Source: Sedimentisphaerales bacterium
Lineage (GTDB): Bacteria; Planctomycetota; Phycisphaerae; Sedimentisphaerales; Anaerobacaceae
Length of the DNA: 50,860 nucleotides
Assembly (NCBI GenBank): GCA_016933295.1
Contig: JAFGBG010000078.1
Coordinates: 1 to 50,860, forward strand
Reading direction: 5' to 3'
The translations under genes were made by a program, and so were the position numbers. The notes under the pieces are model-generated. The model saw only the letters and a program-made list of their open reading frames with translations, did not search any database and was not told the origin of the DNA. Of the stretch, positions 8,277-47,524 are shown piece by piece (positions within the stretch are counted from its first letter, which is position 1; every line of letters starts with the position of its first letter).

Positions 8277-9518
8277 ATGCCAGATCCTTCGACTCCGCTC
8301 AGGACAAGTTTTAAGATAGAACCGGCACAGAGAATAACACGATTACCCCCGTATCTGTTCGGGCGGCTGAACGCGCTGAAACTTGCCAAACGCCAGCAGG
8401 GGGCCGATATTATAGATTTGGGAATGGGCAATCCCTCGGACGGTGCGCCACAGGTCGTTATCGATAAACTTTGCGAAGCGGCACGCGATCCCCGCAATCA
8501 CAGATACAGCGCCTCGAAAGGCATTACGAACCTGCGAAGGGAAATCGCCAAGAAATACGAGCGTAAATGGAACGTCCAGCTCGATCCGGAGACTGAAGTT
8601 TTGGCCTGTATCGGCTCGAAGGAAGGTTTCAGCCACATGTGCCTGGCGATGATGGGGCCGGGCGATACGGCTATTGTACCCGACCCGGCGTTTCCTATCC
8701 ACAATTACGGCGTGGCACTGGCAGGCGGCAACGTGGTATCCGTGCCGTTGGGCAACGACGAGGAATTTATCAAAAATGTCATAATGGTCATCGAGCATCT
8801 CTATCCGAAGCCCAAGCTGCTGATTCTCAATTACCCGCACAATCCCACGGCCATGACGGTTGACCAGGGATTCTTCGAGCCGGTCGTCGAAGCGGCGAAA
8901 AAATTCGGAGTCGCCGTAATCAACGACTTCGCTTACGGCGAGACCTGTTTCGACGGCTATGAAGCCCCGAGCTTCCTTTCGGTAAAAGGCGCCAAGGATA
9001 TCGGCGTCGAATTTATCACGCTGAGCAAGCCCTACAGCATGGCGGGTTTTCGTATAGGATTTGTCGCGGGTAACAAAGATATGATTAATTACCTCGCCAC
9101 AATCAAGGGTTACTACGATTATGGAATCTTTCAGCCGCTACAGATAGCCGGCATAATAGCGCTTCGCGGGTGCGAAGATTTTATAGTCGAGCAGAATCTC
9201 AGATATCAATCCCGGCGGGATGTCGTTTGCGACGGCCTTCGCAGAATCGGCTGGGAAGTGGAAAGACCACGCGCCACGATGTTCGTCTGGGCGAAAGTGC
9301 CGCAGGAACATTCACAGGGCAAAGGTAGTATCGACTTTGCGATGGACCTGATGGAACATGCCGAGGTCGCAATCTCCCCGGGCAGGGCGTTCGGCGAAAG
9401 AGGCGAAGATTATATGCGTATCGCGCTTGTTGAAAACGAGCAGAGGCTCCGACAGGCGGTTCGAAATATTAGCCGGTTCGTACGTAAAAACCAGCCGGAT
9501 ATGGAAACTAAAAGCTGA
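8277..9518 (+). CDS. Class I/II pyridoxal-phosphate aminotransferase (AlaC/LL-DAP aminotransferase-like)
   Basis: Motifs '[12 protein letters not shown]', '[10 protein letters not shown]', '[21 protein letters not shown]' (PLP lysine region). The first ~11 residues ([11 protein letters not shown]) derive from a dispersed repeat, so the N-terminus is uncertain. Confidence 0.9.
8284..8311 (+). repeat. Dispersed repeat ATCCTTCGACTCCGCTCAGGACAAGTTT
   Basis: Near-identical copies at 25307-25332 (reverse complement) and 25701-25727. Confidence 0.8.
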
Positions 9519-10699: not shown

Positions 10700-10797
10700 A
10701 ACTAAAGCGTAAAAGAGCAAAAGTGCATAAGTCTTTTGCTCCTGTGCCCTTATGCCCTTGTGTTCCTTTGCTCTTGTGCTCTTCTGTACTTAAGACT
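10700..10797. repeat. Word-repeat element rich in AGAGCAAAAGTGCATAAG / CTTATGCCCTTGTG
   Basis: A-rich left half and T/C-rich right half are imperfect reverse complements (…AAGAGCAAAAGTGCATAAG… / …CTTATGCCCTTGTGTTCCTTTGCTCTT…). Confidence 0.6.
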
Positions 10798-25095: not shown

Positions 25096-25254
25096 ATCGA
25101 TGGAAGCTTTGCCCAACGCTATAAATGCGATGACAGCATTGCATTAAGGCTAATTCTGCCGGAAGATAAGGATTTTCCTTGCATTTTAGCAGGAACGAGA
25201 TAAAATATGATTCTACAATTTAATATAGCATACCATGTAGAAGTCAGAAGCCGG

Positions 25255-25727
25255 AAATCAGCAGAAAAATCAAATCCTAAGTCCTAAGCTCGAAATCCTA
25301 AAAAAGCTTGTCCTGAGCAAAGTCGAAGGATTCAAATTTTCAAAAACCTCAATTTTCAAAACAAAATGAGCGAAAAAACGTCAAAAACATGCAAAATTTA
25401 AGAAAAAAGCAATATGGGGGCACAAAGATCCAAAGTGTCAAAGGCACAAAGTAACTATGCACCTCTGTGCCTCTGTACCTTTGGACCTTCAAAACACCTC
25501 TGTGGCTCAAAAAAAATCGAAAACGAACCCAATTTTAGAAAGACCCAAGACGACAGACCTTATTTGAAAAAACGAACCCAATTTTACTTAGCGTATGGCG
25601 TTTAGCGGATAGCGATTAGTTTTGTAAATGTTTGATAATAAGTTGGTTATGTTAATGTTAATCAGGATATTACTATTTTGGGGATCAAAAAAACAAAGCC
25701 AATCCTTCGACAAGCTCAGGACAAGTT
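25255..25727. repeat. Mosaic of several short repeat/word-repeat elements
   Basis: Contains 'AATCCTAAGTCCTAAGCTCGAAATCCTAA', two CTTCGAC/CTCAGGACAAG elements, a CACAAAG imperfect palindrome, two copies of AAACGAACCCAATTTTA and 'TAGCGTATGGCGTTTAGCGGATAGCGATTAG'. Confidence 0.75.
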
Positions 25728-28618
25728 TATTTAGCTGTTGGGATATTAGTCAGGAAGGCGGCTAAAATTTTGATCGGATGGCGGACGGTGCAGTCGCTGA
25801 TGTGCTCGATTTGCATTTTGCAGGCGGCACATTCGGTCAGGACGTTCTTTACGGGCGATTTCTCCAATGCCTCTTTCAGGCCGGAAGCAATCTGAGAGGA
25901 AAGCTGGCGATTTTTCTTCTGCATTCCGAACGTCCCGGCCAGGCCGCAGCAGCCGGCCTTGAGGTCCGTGACTTTTACGCCGCAAAGCTCCTGCAGCAAC
26001 TTTGTACTTGCCGTCCCGTCACCGACGGCACATAAATGGCAGGGCAGGTGATAAACAAATTCGTCTCTCGTCTCTCGTGACACGTCGCTCGTCGGTTGTT
26101 TTAGCTTGCCTTGATTGTGAAGGTCGAGCAGATAGTTCATCAGCTCGAACGTATTTTCGCTGACGAGTTTGGCGTCTTCACCGGCAACGAAATGGCGAAG
26201 CTCGTCTCTCAAACACAGTGCGGCACTCGGCTCGGAGCAAACGATTTTGTAGCCGTCACGCACGGCGTTTGCCAGATGTTTTACGTTGAAAGATAAATCC
26301 CGCCGAGCCCGCTTGAGATTGCCGTAAACAATCGCCGGCAGTGGGGCGGGCAACTGCTTCGGCAGAATTACTTCGATACCGTTGGCTCTTAAGACATCGA
26401 GCACGGCGAAACCTAATTCGTGGTCGTTATAGTTAGCATATGTATCCACGAAATAGGTTACTTTATCGATGGGCTTTTCTATCGGGGCGCTTGACGCCAA
26501 ATATTTACGTCCGGCTTTGAGGAACGAGCCGCGTTTGAACTTCGGCATTTTCCTTTGCCTGTCGAGACCGGCGGATTTTTCGAGGAGCCAGGCAAAGAAA
26601 GGCAGCCGCATGAAAAGATTCGAGACCGGCGAAAAAATGCCGCCCAGCATGCTCAGGTATCGGTTGTTGCTCAGTGCGCGTTCGGGCAGGCGAAGACCTC
26701 GTCGCCTGACATAGCGTGTCCTTGCCGCGGCCATCAGTTTGGAAATATCGACACCCGAGGGACATTGCAGACTGCAAGCCTTGCAGTTCACGCATAAATC
26801 CAGGAACTTCCTGAACTGCGCAGAATCGAACTGGTTATCGTCAAGTTGACCGGTGGCCCAGAATTGGAGGATATTAGCTTTTGCACGCGAGCTTGCCAGT
26901 TCTTCTCCCATCGCTCGAAACACGGGGCACATCCGCAGGTCGGATTCCCTGCTCAGGCAGAGTCCGCATCCGTAGCATTGCTCGATTTCCAGCTCGAGCT
27001 CGTCCTTATCGAAGAACAAATCGCTTTTTGCCCGTTCCGGCAGAACTTTGTTTTGCCGCCGCAGGTTTTTCAGCATTATGTCCGGGTCATCGTTCAAGAT
27101 TTTGCCGGGATTGAGCAGATTTTTCGGATCGAATATTTTTTTGATTTTGCAAAGCAGCTCGTAATATTTATCGCCGTACTGGCGCCGGATAAATGCCGCT
27201 CTCGCGAGGCCGTCGGCGTGCTCGCCGCTGATTGAGCCGCCCAGTGACATGGCGAGCGAAAAAACATCTATGGCAATCGCCTGCATTTTTTGACGTTCGG
27301 CAGGCTCGCTTAAATCCAGGAAGGGACGCACGTGCAGCTCACTGTCACCGGCATGGCCGAAAAAGGACATCTTAAAATCGTAACGCCGGCCGATTTCCTG
27401 CAGGCCTTCGATGTACCTGCCGAGCTGCTTGTGATCGACGGAAATATCTTCCATAAATTCCGCCGGGTGTTGTCTGCGTTTTTTCCTGTACAGCAGCGGC
27501 CCTGCGTCCTTGCGTGACTTCCACAAACGCGCCTGTTTGGCCGGGTCGAAGAAGGTTGTCCGTCGGCTTGCCAATTTTCCGACGGCAAGGTCTGTTTTTT
27601 CTATCTTTTCTTTGACCTGTTGCGGCGATTGGCCGGTATGCTCGACAAGAAGAACCGCGGTGGCTCCGGACGGAAGGATGTCCCTGTATTCCGGCAAAGC
27701 TTCGAAGGCCAGGTCGATTAAGGTTTTATCCATCAGCTCGCACGCCGATGCGCCGCTTTCGACGATAACCGGCACTGCTTGTGCCATTTTGTCTAAAGAA
27801 TCGAATTCGAGTTGGAGCAGTGCTTTTGCCTCCGGGACCGGAACTGTCCTGAGTGTGAGCTGTGTGAAAATCGCCAGAGTCCCTTCGGAACCTGCCAGCA
27901 GCCGGGCAAGATCTATTTTGCCGTCGCGGCAAATTCCGGCTATTGAGTAGCCGCTGCGATTCCGGCGGGATTTCGGTTGTGCGCCGGCAATCACTTCCTG
28001 ATTGGCCGAAAGCACGGCGAGGCATTCTTCGGCAATATGTTTTACGGCGTCGTCGGGGGAGTGTTTCGTGTCGTAGTCGTTTTTGAATTCGCAGATGCTG
28101 CCGTCGGCGGTGACCGCCGTAATACTTTCCACATAGTCGCCGATGTAGCCGTACTGGAGCCAATGGGCGCCGGTTGAATTATTGGCGAGGCAGGCCCCGA
28201 CGACTGCACGGTTGGCGCTGGACGGGTCGGGTCCGATTTTTCTGCCGTAACCGGCGAGATACTTGTTCAAATCGTCCAGCACAACACCCGGCTCGCAAAC
28301 GACCGTTTGCCCCTCGTCCTGTGTGCCGAGAATCCTGTTCATGTAGCGTGTCATATCAAGAACTATGCCGCTGCCGAGCGACTCGCCCGCCAGGCCGCTT
28401 CCGGCGCCGCGCGCGACGACTGGTATATTCTTCGAGCCGGCGTAATTTACAACTGCGGCTATATCATTTGCGTCTCGCGGCATGACAACACATTGCGGCA
28501 CGATGCGATAAATACTCGCGTCGGTGCTGTAGGCGGCCCTGTGTAAAATATCTGCAAAGACATCGCCGCGGATTATTTGAGATAATTCTGAAGCAATTTG
28601 TTCGGCGGCATTATTCAT
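25727..28618 (-). CDS. FAD-binding / Fe-S (GlpC-like) oxidoreductase, D-lactate dehydrogenase-like fusion
   Basis: FAD_binding_4-type 'VVARGAGSGLAGESLGSGIVLDM', 'GSEGTLAIFTQLTL'; 4Fe-4S motifs 'CYGCGLCLSRESDLRMCP' and 'CVNCKACSLQCPSG'; C-terminal 'CCGLAGTFG' cysteine-rich motif. Confidence 0.93.
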   Translation of the reverse strand: MNNAAEQIASELSQIIRGDVFADILHRAAYSTDASIYRIVPQCVVMPRDANDIAAVVNYAGSKNIPVVARGAGSGLAGESLGSGIVLDMTRYMNRILGTQDEGQTVVCEPGVVLDDLNKYLAGYGRKIGPDPSSANRAVVGACLANNSTGAHWLQYGYIGDYVESITAVTADGSICEFKNDYDTKHSPDDAVKHIAEECLAVLSANQEVIAGAQPKSRRNRSGYSIAGICRDGKIDLARLLAGSEGTLAIFTQLTLRTVPVPEAKALLQLEFDSLDKMAQAVPVIVESGASACELMDKTLIDLAFEALPEYRDILPSGATAVLLVEHTGQSPQQVKEKIEKTDLAVGKLASRRTTFFDPAKQARLWKSRKDAGPLLYRKKRRQHPAEFMEDISVDHKQLGRYIEGLQEIGRRYDFKMSFFGHAGDSELHVRPFLDLSEPAERQKMQAIAIDVFSLAMSLGGSISGEHADGLARAAFIRRQYGDKYYELLCKIKKIFDPKNLLNPGKILNDDPDIMLKNLRRQNKVLPERAKSDLFFDKDELELEIEQCYGCGLCLSRESDLRMCPVFRAMGEELASSRAKANILQFWATGQLDDNQFDSAQFRKFLDLCVNCKACSLQCPSGVDISKLMAAARTRYVRRRGLRLPERALSNNRYLSMLGGIFSPVSNLFMRLPFFAWLLEKSAGLDRQRKMPKFKRGSFLKAGRKYLASSAPIEKPIDKVTYFVDTYANYNDHELGFAVLDVLRANGIEVILPKQLPAPLPAIVYGNLKRARRDLSFNVKHLANAVRDGYKIVCSEPSAALCLRDELRHFVAGEDAKLVSENTFELMNYLLDLHNQGKLKQPTSDVSRETRDEFVYHLPCHLCAVGDGTASTKLLQELCGVKVTDLKAGCCGLAGTFGMQKKNRQLSSQIASGLKEALEKSPVKNVLTECAACKMQIEHISDCTVRHPIKILAAFLTNIPTAK
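26059..26097. repeat. CTCGT word-repeat (half element) inside an oxidoreductase gene
   Basis: TTCGTCTCTCGTCTCTCGTGACACGTCGCTCGTCGG, same words as the left arm of the 46.3 kb element. Confidence 0.6.
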
Positions 28619-46238: not shown

Positions 46239-47524
46239 GTTAAAAAACTTCTTTCGATTCGGTTTATTGTTTTTGTGCTACTACCCGAAATAAATACGTT
46301 ACTCGTAACTCGTCGCTCGTGACTCGGGACCCGAGAGACGAGAGGCGAGGGACGAGACAGGTTGCCGAGAAAATTCGCCGCGATGATAAACATTGCGTGC
46401 GACCATGCGAGCGGGCTGACCGACAATTTCTTTTTAACTTCGAATATCTGTTCGGGAATATATTTATCGATTTTTCCCAGGGGCCAATTGAAGTACTTTT
46501 CTGCTTTCTTTTTATCGCCCCGCATGGAAAAGTAAATCGCCATCCAGAAGTTCAGCAGGGGCCATGCACCGGCGCCGGTCAACGTGACCCGGCCGTTTTT
46601 TACGCCGCCGCAATATTTATCGTTCGGGTATCGCATCAGGCCGCCGTTAGCTGTCGTATTTTGTTTGATAATTTCATCGACGGTTGTTTCCATCTTCGGA
46701 TCGGAGGCCTCCAAAATTGCCGCCGGATAGACCAGACCCAGCAGCGATGTGTCCGGCAGAAAATCCTCTTTCTTAAATTTGCCGCCGTATGTTCCTGGAA
46801 TCGAATTTTTGCCGGACGCATACAATGTGGCAAAAACTTCCGACATTTCCTTTTCCGTTCGCAGCCAGTCCTTCTTTTTACCAGAAAGAGAGATTGCTAT
46901 TCTCAAGCCGGCTATGCACATCGCCAAAGAATATGTATGAATCCGTTTTTGTTTGGGCGGGAGGCATCTTTCCTCCCACAAATCGAAGCAGGGCAAAATA
47001 AATCGCCTGTCCTTCCACGAGCTGCAAATACCCGAAGCCGCATGTTGTATTATTTTTTTATACCTGGTTATGTTCCGAGTACCGAAACGCTTAATATGAT
47101 GTCCTATCGCAACTAACAATGAGCCGTTCTGGTCCGGCTGAAACTGTGTGCCGTGATGTATTAAATGACCGTAGATATCGCCGACTTTTCGGGGGATTTT
47201 CAAATCCGCCGGGGCGACCAGTGTGCCGTGGATTGTCCCGTTGATATTATAGGCATTGGAAAAAAGCCCCGTTTCCCGAAAGCCTTCGGCGCGATAAAGG
47301 CACCAGTCAAAGAATTTTTCAGGGATGTCCTTCAGCCCGAGTAAATCGGCGGCGATACAAATATAAGATGCGTCACGGACCCAGACATACCGGTAGTCCT
47401 GAACGGCGGACGGATAGGCGGATTTGCCGGAATCAGCGGCGACAATCGCTCCGTTTTCCAGCGAGCAGTCTTCGATAACATTTTTGCTGATTCGAATAAG
47501 CTTGTTTATTTCCGGCTTTTTCAT
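46235..47524 (-). CDS. GH15-type glycoside hydrolase (glucoamylase-like)
   Basis: 'YRYVWVRDASYICIAADLLGL', 'GHLIHHGTQFQPDQNGSLLVAIGHHI', 'LTGAGAWPLLNFWMAIYF'; the last ~40 aa come from a repeat element plus readthrough. Confidence 0.82.
   Translation of the reverse strand: MKKPEINKLIRISKNVIEDCSLENGAIVAADSGKSAYPSAVQDYRYVWVRDASYICIAADLLGLKDIPEKFFDWCLYRAEGFRETGLFSNAYNINGTIHGTLVAPADLKIPRKVGDIYGHLIHHGTQFQPDQNGSLLVAIGHHIKRFGTRNITRYKKIIQHAASGICSSWKDRRFILPCFDLWEERCLPPKQKRIHTYSLAMCIAGLRIAISLSGKKKDWLRTEKEMSEVFATLYASGKNSIPGTYGGKFKKEDFLPDTSLLGLVYPAAILEASDPKMETTVDEIIKQNTTANGGLMRYPNDKYCGGVKNGRVTLTGAGAWPLLNFWMAIYFSMRGDKKKAEKYFNWPLGKIDKYIPEQIFEVKKKLSVSPLAWSHAMFIIAANFLGNLSRPSPLVSRVPSHERRVTSNVFISGSSTKTINRIERSFLT
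46297..46357. repeat. CTCGT word-repeat imperfect palindrome overlapping the 3' end of the GH15 gene
   Basis: ACTCGTAACTCGTCGCTCGTGACTCGG - GAC - CCGAGAGACGAGAGGCGAGGGACGAG; arms pair over ~26 nt with a few mismatches. Confidence 0.75.

Follow-up and report, generated by a model that had tools for sequence, protein, structure and literature searches.

Ordered intergenic arrays of linker-closed modules behind a promoter-like leader in an uncultivated Sedimentisphaerales bacterium

BIMEs and REPs with their RAYTs (PMC2817692, PMC3116915) are intergenic mosaics of short motifs that show lineage-specific bursts, contain REP-like palindromes and have neighbouring RAYT genes; one third of RAYT genes are reported to adjoin BIMEs directly (PMC2817692). 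Pneumococcal BOX (PMC3049150) is a modular (boxA-boxB-boxC), expandable intergenic repeat with incidental open reading frames, and the heptanucleotide repeats of cyanobacteria and Beggiatoaceae (STRR, TAACTGA, GGGGAYT; PMC4679880, PMC4692102) are intergenic tandem heptads, patchy over phyla. In integron cassette arrays, a promoter leader is followed by boundary-defined modules in one orientation. The planctomycete arrays described here resemble each of these systems, the RAYT adjacency being seen in their own genome and the likeness to BOX being one of build. Unlike BIMEs and REPs, they have their own promoter leader, a fixed single orientation, a 13-bp linker between modules and heptad or octad words; they are devoid of GTAG-tagged alternating REPs and carry only scattered CTTCGAC palindromes (19 in the genome), with none in many arrays. 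Far more module types, the promoter leader and, in the copy studied here, the lack of a strong RNA fold set them apart from BOX, whereas the difference from the cyanobacterial and Beggiatoaceae repeats lies in many different degenerate heptads and octads that are parts of larger modules. Compared with integron cassettes, the modules are non-coding, the linker is unlike attC (judged by eye) and no integron integrase is associated. The arrays are a real, ordered family of BIME/BOX-type modular repeats built from STRR-like heptads, with a promoter leader and a boundary-marking linker. A literature search found no named planctomycete family of such arrays.

Extent and parts of the window array

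The window, the whole 50,860-nucleotide stretch of DNA that was analysed (contig C142), contains an array at about 25140-25729. It belongs to a dispersed composite family that numbers about 50 arrays genome-wide. A leader with a sigma-70-like promoter is followed by degenerate tandem heptads and octads and then by modules, each closed by the linker AAACGAASCCAAT. The parts are as follows.

25139-25250, + strand: leader, common to about 40 other arrays
25179-25184 and 25201-25206, + strand: promoter-like hexamers TTGCAT and TAAAAT of the leader; the 16-bp spacer holds the conserved GCNGGAACG
25272-25302, + strand: degenerate heptads AATCCTAA/AGTCCTAA/AGCTCGAA (TCCTAA heptads); nearest relative L098, 90% over 31 nt
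25307-25332 (CTTCGAC element 25311-25328), - strand: CTTCGAC...CTCAGGA imperfect palindrome, REP-like; 19 exact pattern matches genome-wide
25333-25422, + strand: A-rich module with the CTCAATTTTCAAAACAAAATGAG palindrome and GCAATATGGGGG; 97-98% over about 60 nt to L008 and L003, 90-95% to L002
25423-25496, + strand: octads, CAAAGNNN units followed by inverted CTCTGTGC/CTTTGGAC units (lag 8, 19/24)
25521-25533, + strand: linker 1, AAACGAACCCAAT
25534-25569, + strand: short module with GACCCAAGACGACAGACC words
25570-25582, + strand: linker 2, AAACGAACCCAAT
25520-25537 and 25569-25586: the two copies of AAAACGAACCCAATTTTA
25583-25690, + strand: module type M6, heptads AGCGNNY (TAGCG heptads, 25588-25621) and TTGTAAATGTTTGATAATAAGTTGGTTATGTTAATG; 25 genome copies, 98-100% to L008/L009 over 44-58 nt
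25691-25703, + strand: linker 3, AAACAAAGCCAAT
25704-25729, + strand: terminal CTTCGACAAGCTCAGGACAAG element (CTTCGAC element 25705-25721), which reaches into the convergent oxidoreductase gene at its stop codon (25727-25729)

The original prediction had described this DNA as a patchwork of at least five unrelated short repeat families beginning at 25255. Every element that it listed is present, at the coordinates given there or at most a few bases away, and repetition is far above chance; several repeat families do occur together and are dispersed in the genome and, as it had said, the locus shows neither a transposase nor a target duplication. The start was placed too late, the common leader beginning near 25140-25170, and the families are not unrelated: most are of one kind, degenerate tandem heptads (TTAGCGT ATGGCGT TTAGCGG ATAGCGA; AAATCCT AAGTCCT) or octads (CACAAAGG / CTTTGTGC).

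In a 420-kb sample picked for arrays, 47 lag-7 windows (at least 19/28 matches) were counted against 0 in a Markov control, with a smaller excess at lag 8. Array-poor sequence of the same genome gave 0 lag-7 windows per 100 kb; relatives gave 6 (G013), 10 (G027) and 9 (G053). Tandem 7-bp units are therefore enriched in intergenic DNA, as in STRR-type repeats. Mismatches were concentrated in particular phases in 33/111 heptad arrays, compared with 30/200 simulated under uniform decay. Alignment of 17 M6 copies showed heptad phases 5 and 6 to be hypervariable (1.20 and 1.22 bits) and phases 3 and 4, neither of them used in row selection, to be stable (0.57 and 0.32 bits). The CTTCGAC pattern CTTCGACN{3-8}CTCAGGA matched 19 times in the genome, against 0. 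Similar words are found elsewhere in the window: a third CTTCGAC...CTCAGGACAAG copy at 8284-8312 overlaps the start of ORF 8277-9518. At 10700-10795 a long imperfect hairpin is made up of octads GCAAAAG/GCATAAG and, after them, inverted CTTTTGC/CTTATGC units, and an array of ACTCGTN/ACGAGAN heptads at 46293-46363 makes up the C-terminal tail of an ORF resembling glycosyl hydrolase family 15.

Leader, linker and modules across the genome

The genome (G000) is a MAG of 4.24 Mb in 270 contigs, 88% complete and 3.7% contaminated; counts were drawn from searches and about 520 kb of its sequence stretches. BLAST of 25180-25740 against it gave 78 matches, in clusters, and BLAST of the 120-nt leader gave 35, compared with 0 leader matches in two same-genus genomes. 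The linker AAAACGAASCCAATYT has 103 exact genome copies, as opposed to 0 for the reversed pattern. About 50 linker clusters remained after duplicate removal, an interspersed intergenic mosaic of short repeated motifs of the BIME/REP kind. Arrays were also found at contig ends of the MAG.

Linker clusters that were examined have a TTGAAATTTNGCCGGAACGNNNTATAAT-like leader upstream of them in matching orientation, except where a contig end truncates the array. In about 520 kb, 13 of 18 occurrences of the leader motif had a linker in the next 800 bp. Spacing between the hexamers was 16 bp in all 40 leaders compared, and 36 of these had TATAAT (19), TAAGAT (10) or TAAAAT (7) as the -10 hexamer. Conservation across the 40 leaders was highest at both hexamers and the spacer GCNGG, a result that is partly circular because the retrieval pattern held those letters; the spacing and the relative conservation are still informative. 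These features suggest that the arrays may be transcribed from a conserved promoter. The window copy has TTGCAT as its -35 hexamer, a poor consensus match, and its promoter was not called in a strict promoter scan.

Modules are about 50-250 bp long with the linker at the end of each, and they recur in differing orders among arrays, in one orientation throughout. The window copy is chimeric, its nearest relative switching every 50-100 bp (up to 98-100% identity). In sliding 60-nt windows, the nearest arrays were L293 for the leader, followed by L098, L014/L008, L002/L003, L017/L009, L043/L008, L008/L009 (98-100%), L004/L006 and L049/L313, making the copy a mosaic of at least eight partly different donor arrays. 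When similarity blocks between arrays (at least 85% over at least 40 nt) were mapped, 247 of 655 stopped in the 6-base bin at the linker 3' edge, with about 10 expected at random; a shared linker by itself produces some such ends, which alone are no proof of recombination there. Two adjacent M6 modules in L305 differ only by 2 SNPs, one linker base and a 9-nt octad deletion, which indicates a recent duplication of module plus linker together with a slippage event. REP-like CCTGTCCCGAGC..AGTCGAGGGAA segments (a ~26-bp insert) are found in some M7 modules and are missing from others at the same point; these segments thus behave as insertions. Among the arrays, neither a target duplication nor a transposition event with both of its boundaries was observed. 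Two module types may, judged by eye, contain a dif/Xer-like core (CATAA-N6-TTATG).

Genomic placement and the RAYT genes

A right neighbour was called for 48 arrays, of which 28 are convergent with it and 20 codirectional. The stop lies within 27 bp in 11 of the 28 convergent cases, the window copy included, and 19 of the 20 codirectional arrays leave at least 85 bp to the neighbour. This placement is what selection against promoter disruption gives. At the 3' flank of the orthologous oxidoreductase, the array is absent in G001, G002, G014, G005 and others, both same-genus genomes among them, and in G009 this flank holds two inverted AAAACAAAGCCAAT-type linkers. Where the orthologous 3' flank is array-free, the opposite flank is not syntenic, which bears on target-site duplication. 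MITE-like terminal inverted repeats were not found: the sole inverted pair consists of the two CTTCGAC elements, the left one is about 130 bp inside the leader, and many other arrays are without the pair. The oxidoreductase ORF itself (25727-28618, - strand) contains GACGAGA-type heptads at 26058-26099, in frame, in a variable loop (residues ~840-854); the same loop has similar heptads in G002 and other palindromic repeats (GVAGILPANRGRDA, RLLRCYAPRND) in G001 and G014.

Two Y1-transposase genes, both RAYT-like, are present in the genome, with NF047646 scores of 105.8 bits (above the cut-off of 80) and 67.7 bits (below it). Both are directly upstream of, divergent from and at most 0.5 kb from an array leader (L004 and L018 / L351 and L362). 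In nine other linker-bearing genomes, a linker was found within 1.5 kb at 2 of 28 Y1 loci examined. RAYT copy number shows no trend with linker number across genomes and was ruled out as its predictor; G003 has 9 linkers and no Y1 match. Given the rare adjacency elsewhere and the uncorrelated copy numbers, RAYTs are possibly involved, as a lead and not a result.

Origin and distribution of the arrays

On balance, we consider the arrays probably to be dispersed intergenic elements of one family, modular, headed by a promoter and apparently non-coding: a BIME/BOX-like mobile repeat shuffled at its linkers and possibly RAYT-linked. Such arrays would have spread to intergenic sites and would grow, shrink and reshuffle as copies recombine, in part by unequal exchange, at the 13-16 bp linker, while heptads and octads may diversify by replication slippage and the REP-like CTTCGAC pieces would be separate insertions into arrays. 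More tentatively, mobilisation could occur in trans by RAYT-type HUH transposases, whose genes in this genome (G000) lie only next to arrays. Selfish or BIME-like maintenance is taken as the default. The original prediction had instead proposed a preferred site for insertion or accumulation, at which unrelated non-autonomous sequences built up independently. The resemblance of the REP-like CTTCGAC pieces to separate insertions inside modules, as in M7 with and without the ~26-bp insert, fits that idea, but about 50 places in the genome carry the same modules together, equally oriented and preceded by the same leader. Because ~50 loci have order, orientation, leader and linker in common, independent accumulation is largely refuted, and we regard it as very improbable; judged from these comparisons, the whole stretch is best described as one modular element rather than as independent arrivals at one site. 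The words are not single-copy, recurring genome-wide, and the block is not kept as one unit in distant relatives.

The order behind the leader also resembles that of an integron: the linker could be a true site-specific recombination site and the arrays integron-like non-coding cassettes driven by an unidentified recombinase, as the promoter leader followed by (module+linker)n in a single orientation, the discreteness of modules at linker edges and the tandem module duplication would all allow. However, an integron integrase (TIGR02249 above cut-off) occurs in 9 family genomes, none of them linker-rich except G023 (7 linkers), so that an association with the arrays was rejected, there being no correlation with linker counts; inspection of the linker by eye identified no attC-like structure, and homologous recombination at short repeats accounts for the same data. 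We hold this reading to be unlikely. A similarly low probability is given to an undescribed cassette system. In it, a recombinase other than an integron integrase would both capture and exchange non-coding modules at a short, dedicated linker site behind the conserved promoter, and the system would have passed between Planctomycetota and Alphaproteobacteria. That the arrays are a structured regulatory non-coding RNA family kept for host function seems more doubtful still: the promoter is conserved and some modules form hairpins, but the window transcript folds with a z-score of 0.15, nothing exceeds shuffled sequences, no Rfam 15 covariance model matches and the modules are freely reordered. 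The fold score and the Rfam result led us to reject this candidate. Least probable of all are decayed or active small protein genes. A module of relatives reads QNEPNF..QMNV..DYE..WTLGENEPKTNPI without stops, and open frames reading QMNVNKVLTKDYE..WTLGENEPKTNPI occur in several relatives, but codon-position entropy is flat (0.65/0.71/0.65), the putative frame has the lowest synonymous share (0.11) and most G000 arrays examined have no open frame of at least 80 codons inside the unit. Peptide-coding modules were rejected for this lack of codon-position constraint; relatives have arrays whose open reading frames resemble proteins without coding constraint.

Under the favoured reading, a BIME/BOX-like modular repeat, the seemingly random intergenic repeat clutter of uncultivated planctomycetes would be a family of ordered elements that recombine and that have a promoter and set module boundaries. 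How degenerate heptad and octad words arise and are exchanged becomes testable in one system; the cited literature offers no demonstrated mechanism for this, and the point of interest is what exchanges the modules.

The linker was found in 34 of 89 family genomes, with counts of 78 (G053), 52 (G095), 35 (G081) and 28 (G048), and same-genus genomes had 1 and 0 copies. In a phylum sample of 392 genomes, one genome besides the own held a single linker copy. A longer, 19-nt linker form is present in many copies in planctomycete MAGs and on several contigs of Alphaproteobacteria MAGs. This patchiness, with linker-poor genomes in the same genus and linkers in distant ones, suggests horizontal movement or repeated bursts as possible sources. 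BLAST gave no match on known phages or plasmids; viral-contig carriage was also considered, where 71 stretches had one 16-mer match each, which reads as chance. A Stellaceae contig carries tandem linkers after the first one, with a promoter-like TTGAAA...TATA upstream, seen by eye. In two Alphaproteobacteria MAGs (L132, L176), a ~50-bp TTGCAAAACGAACCCAATTTCNCATAACNCATTG element follows what by eye seems to be the same rpoD gene.
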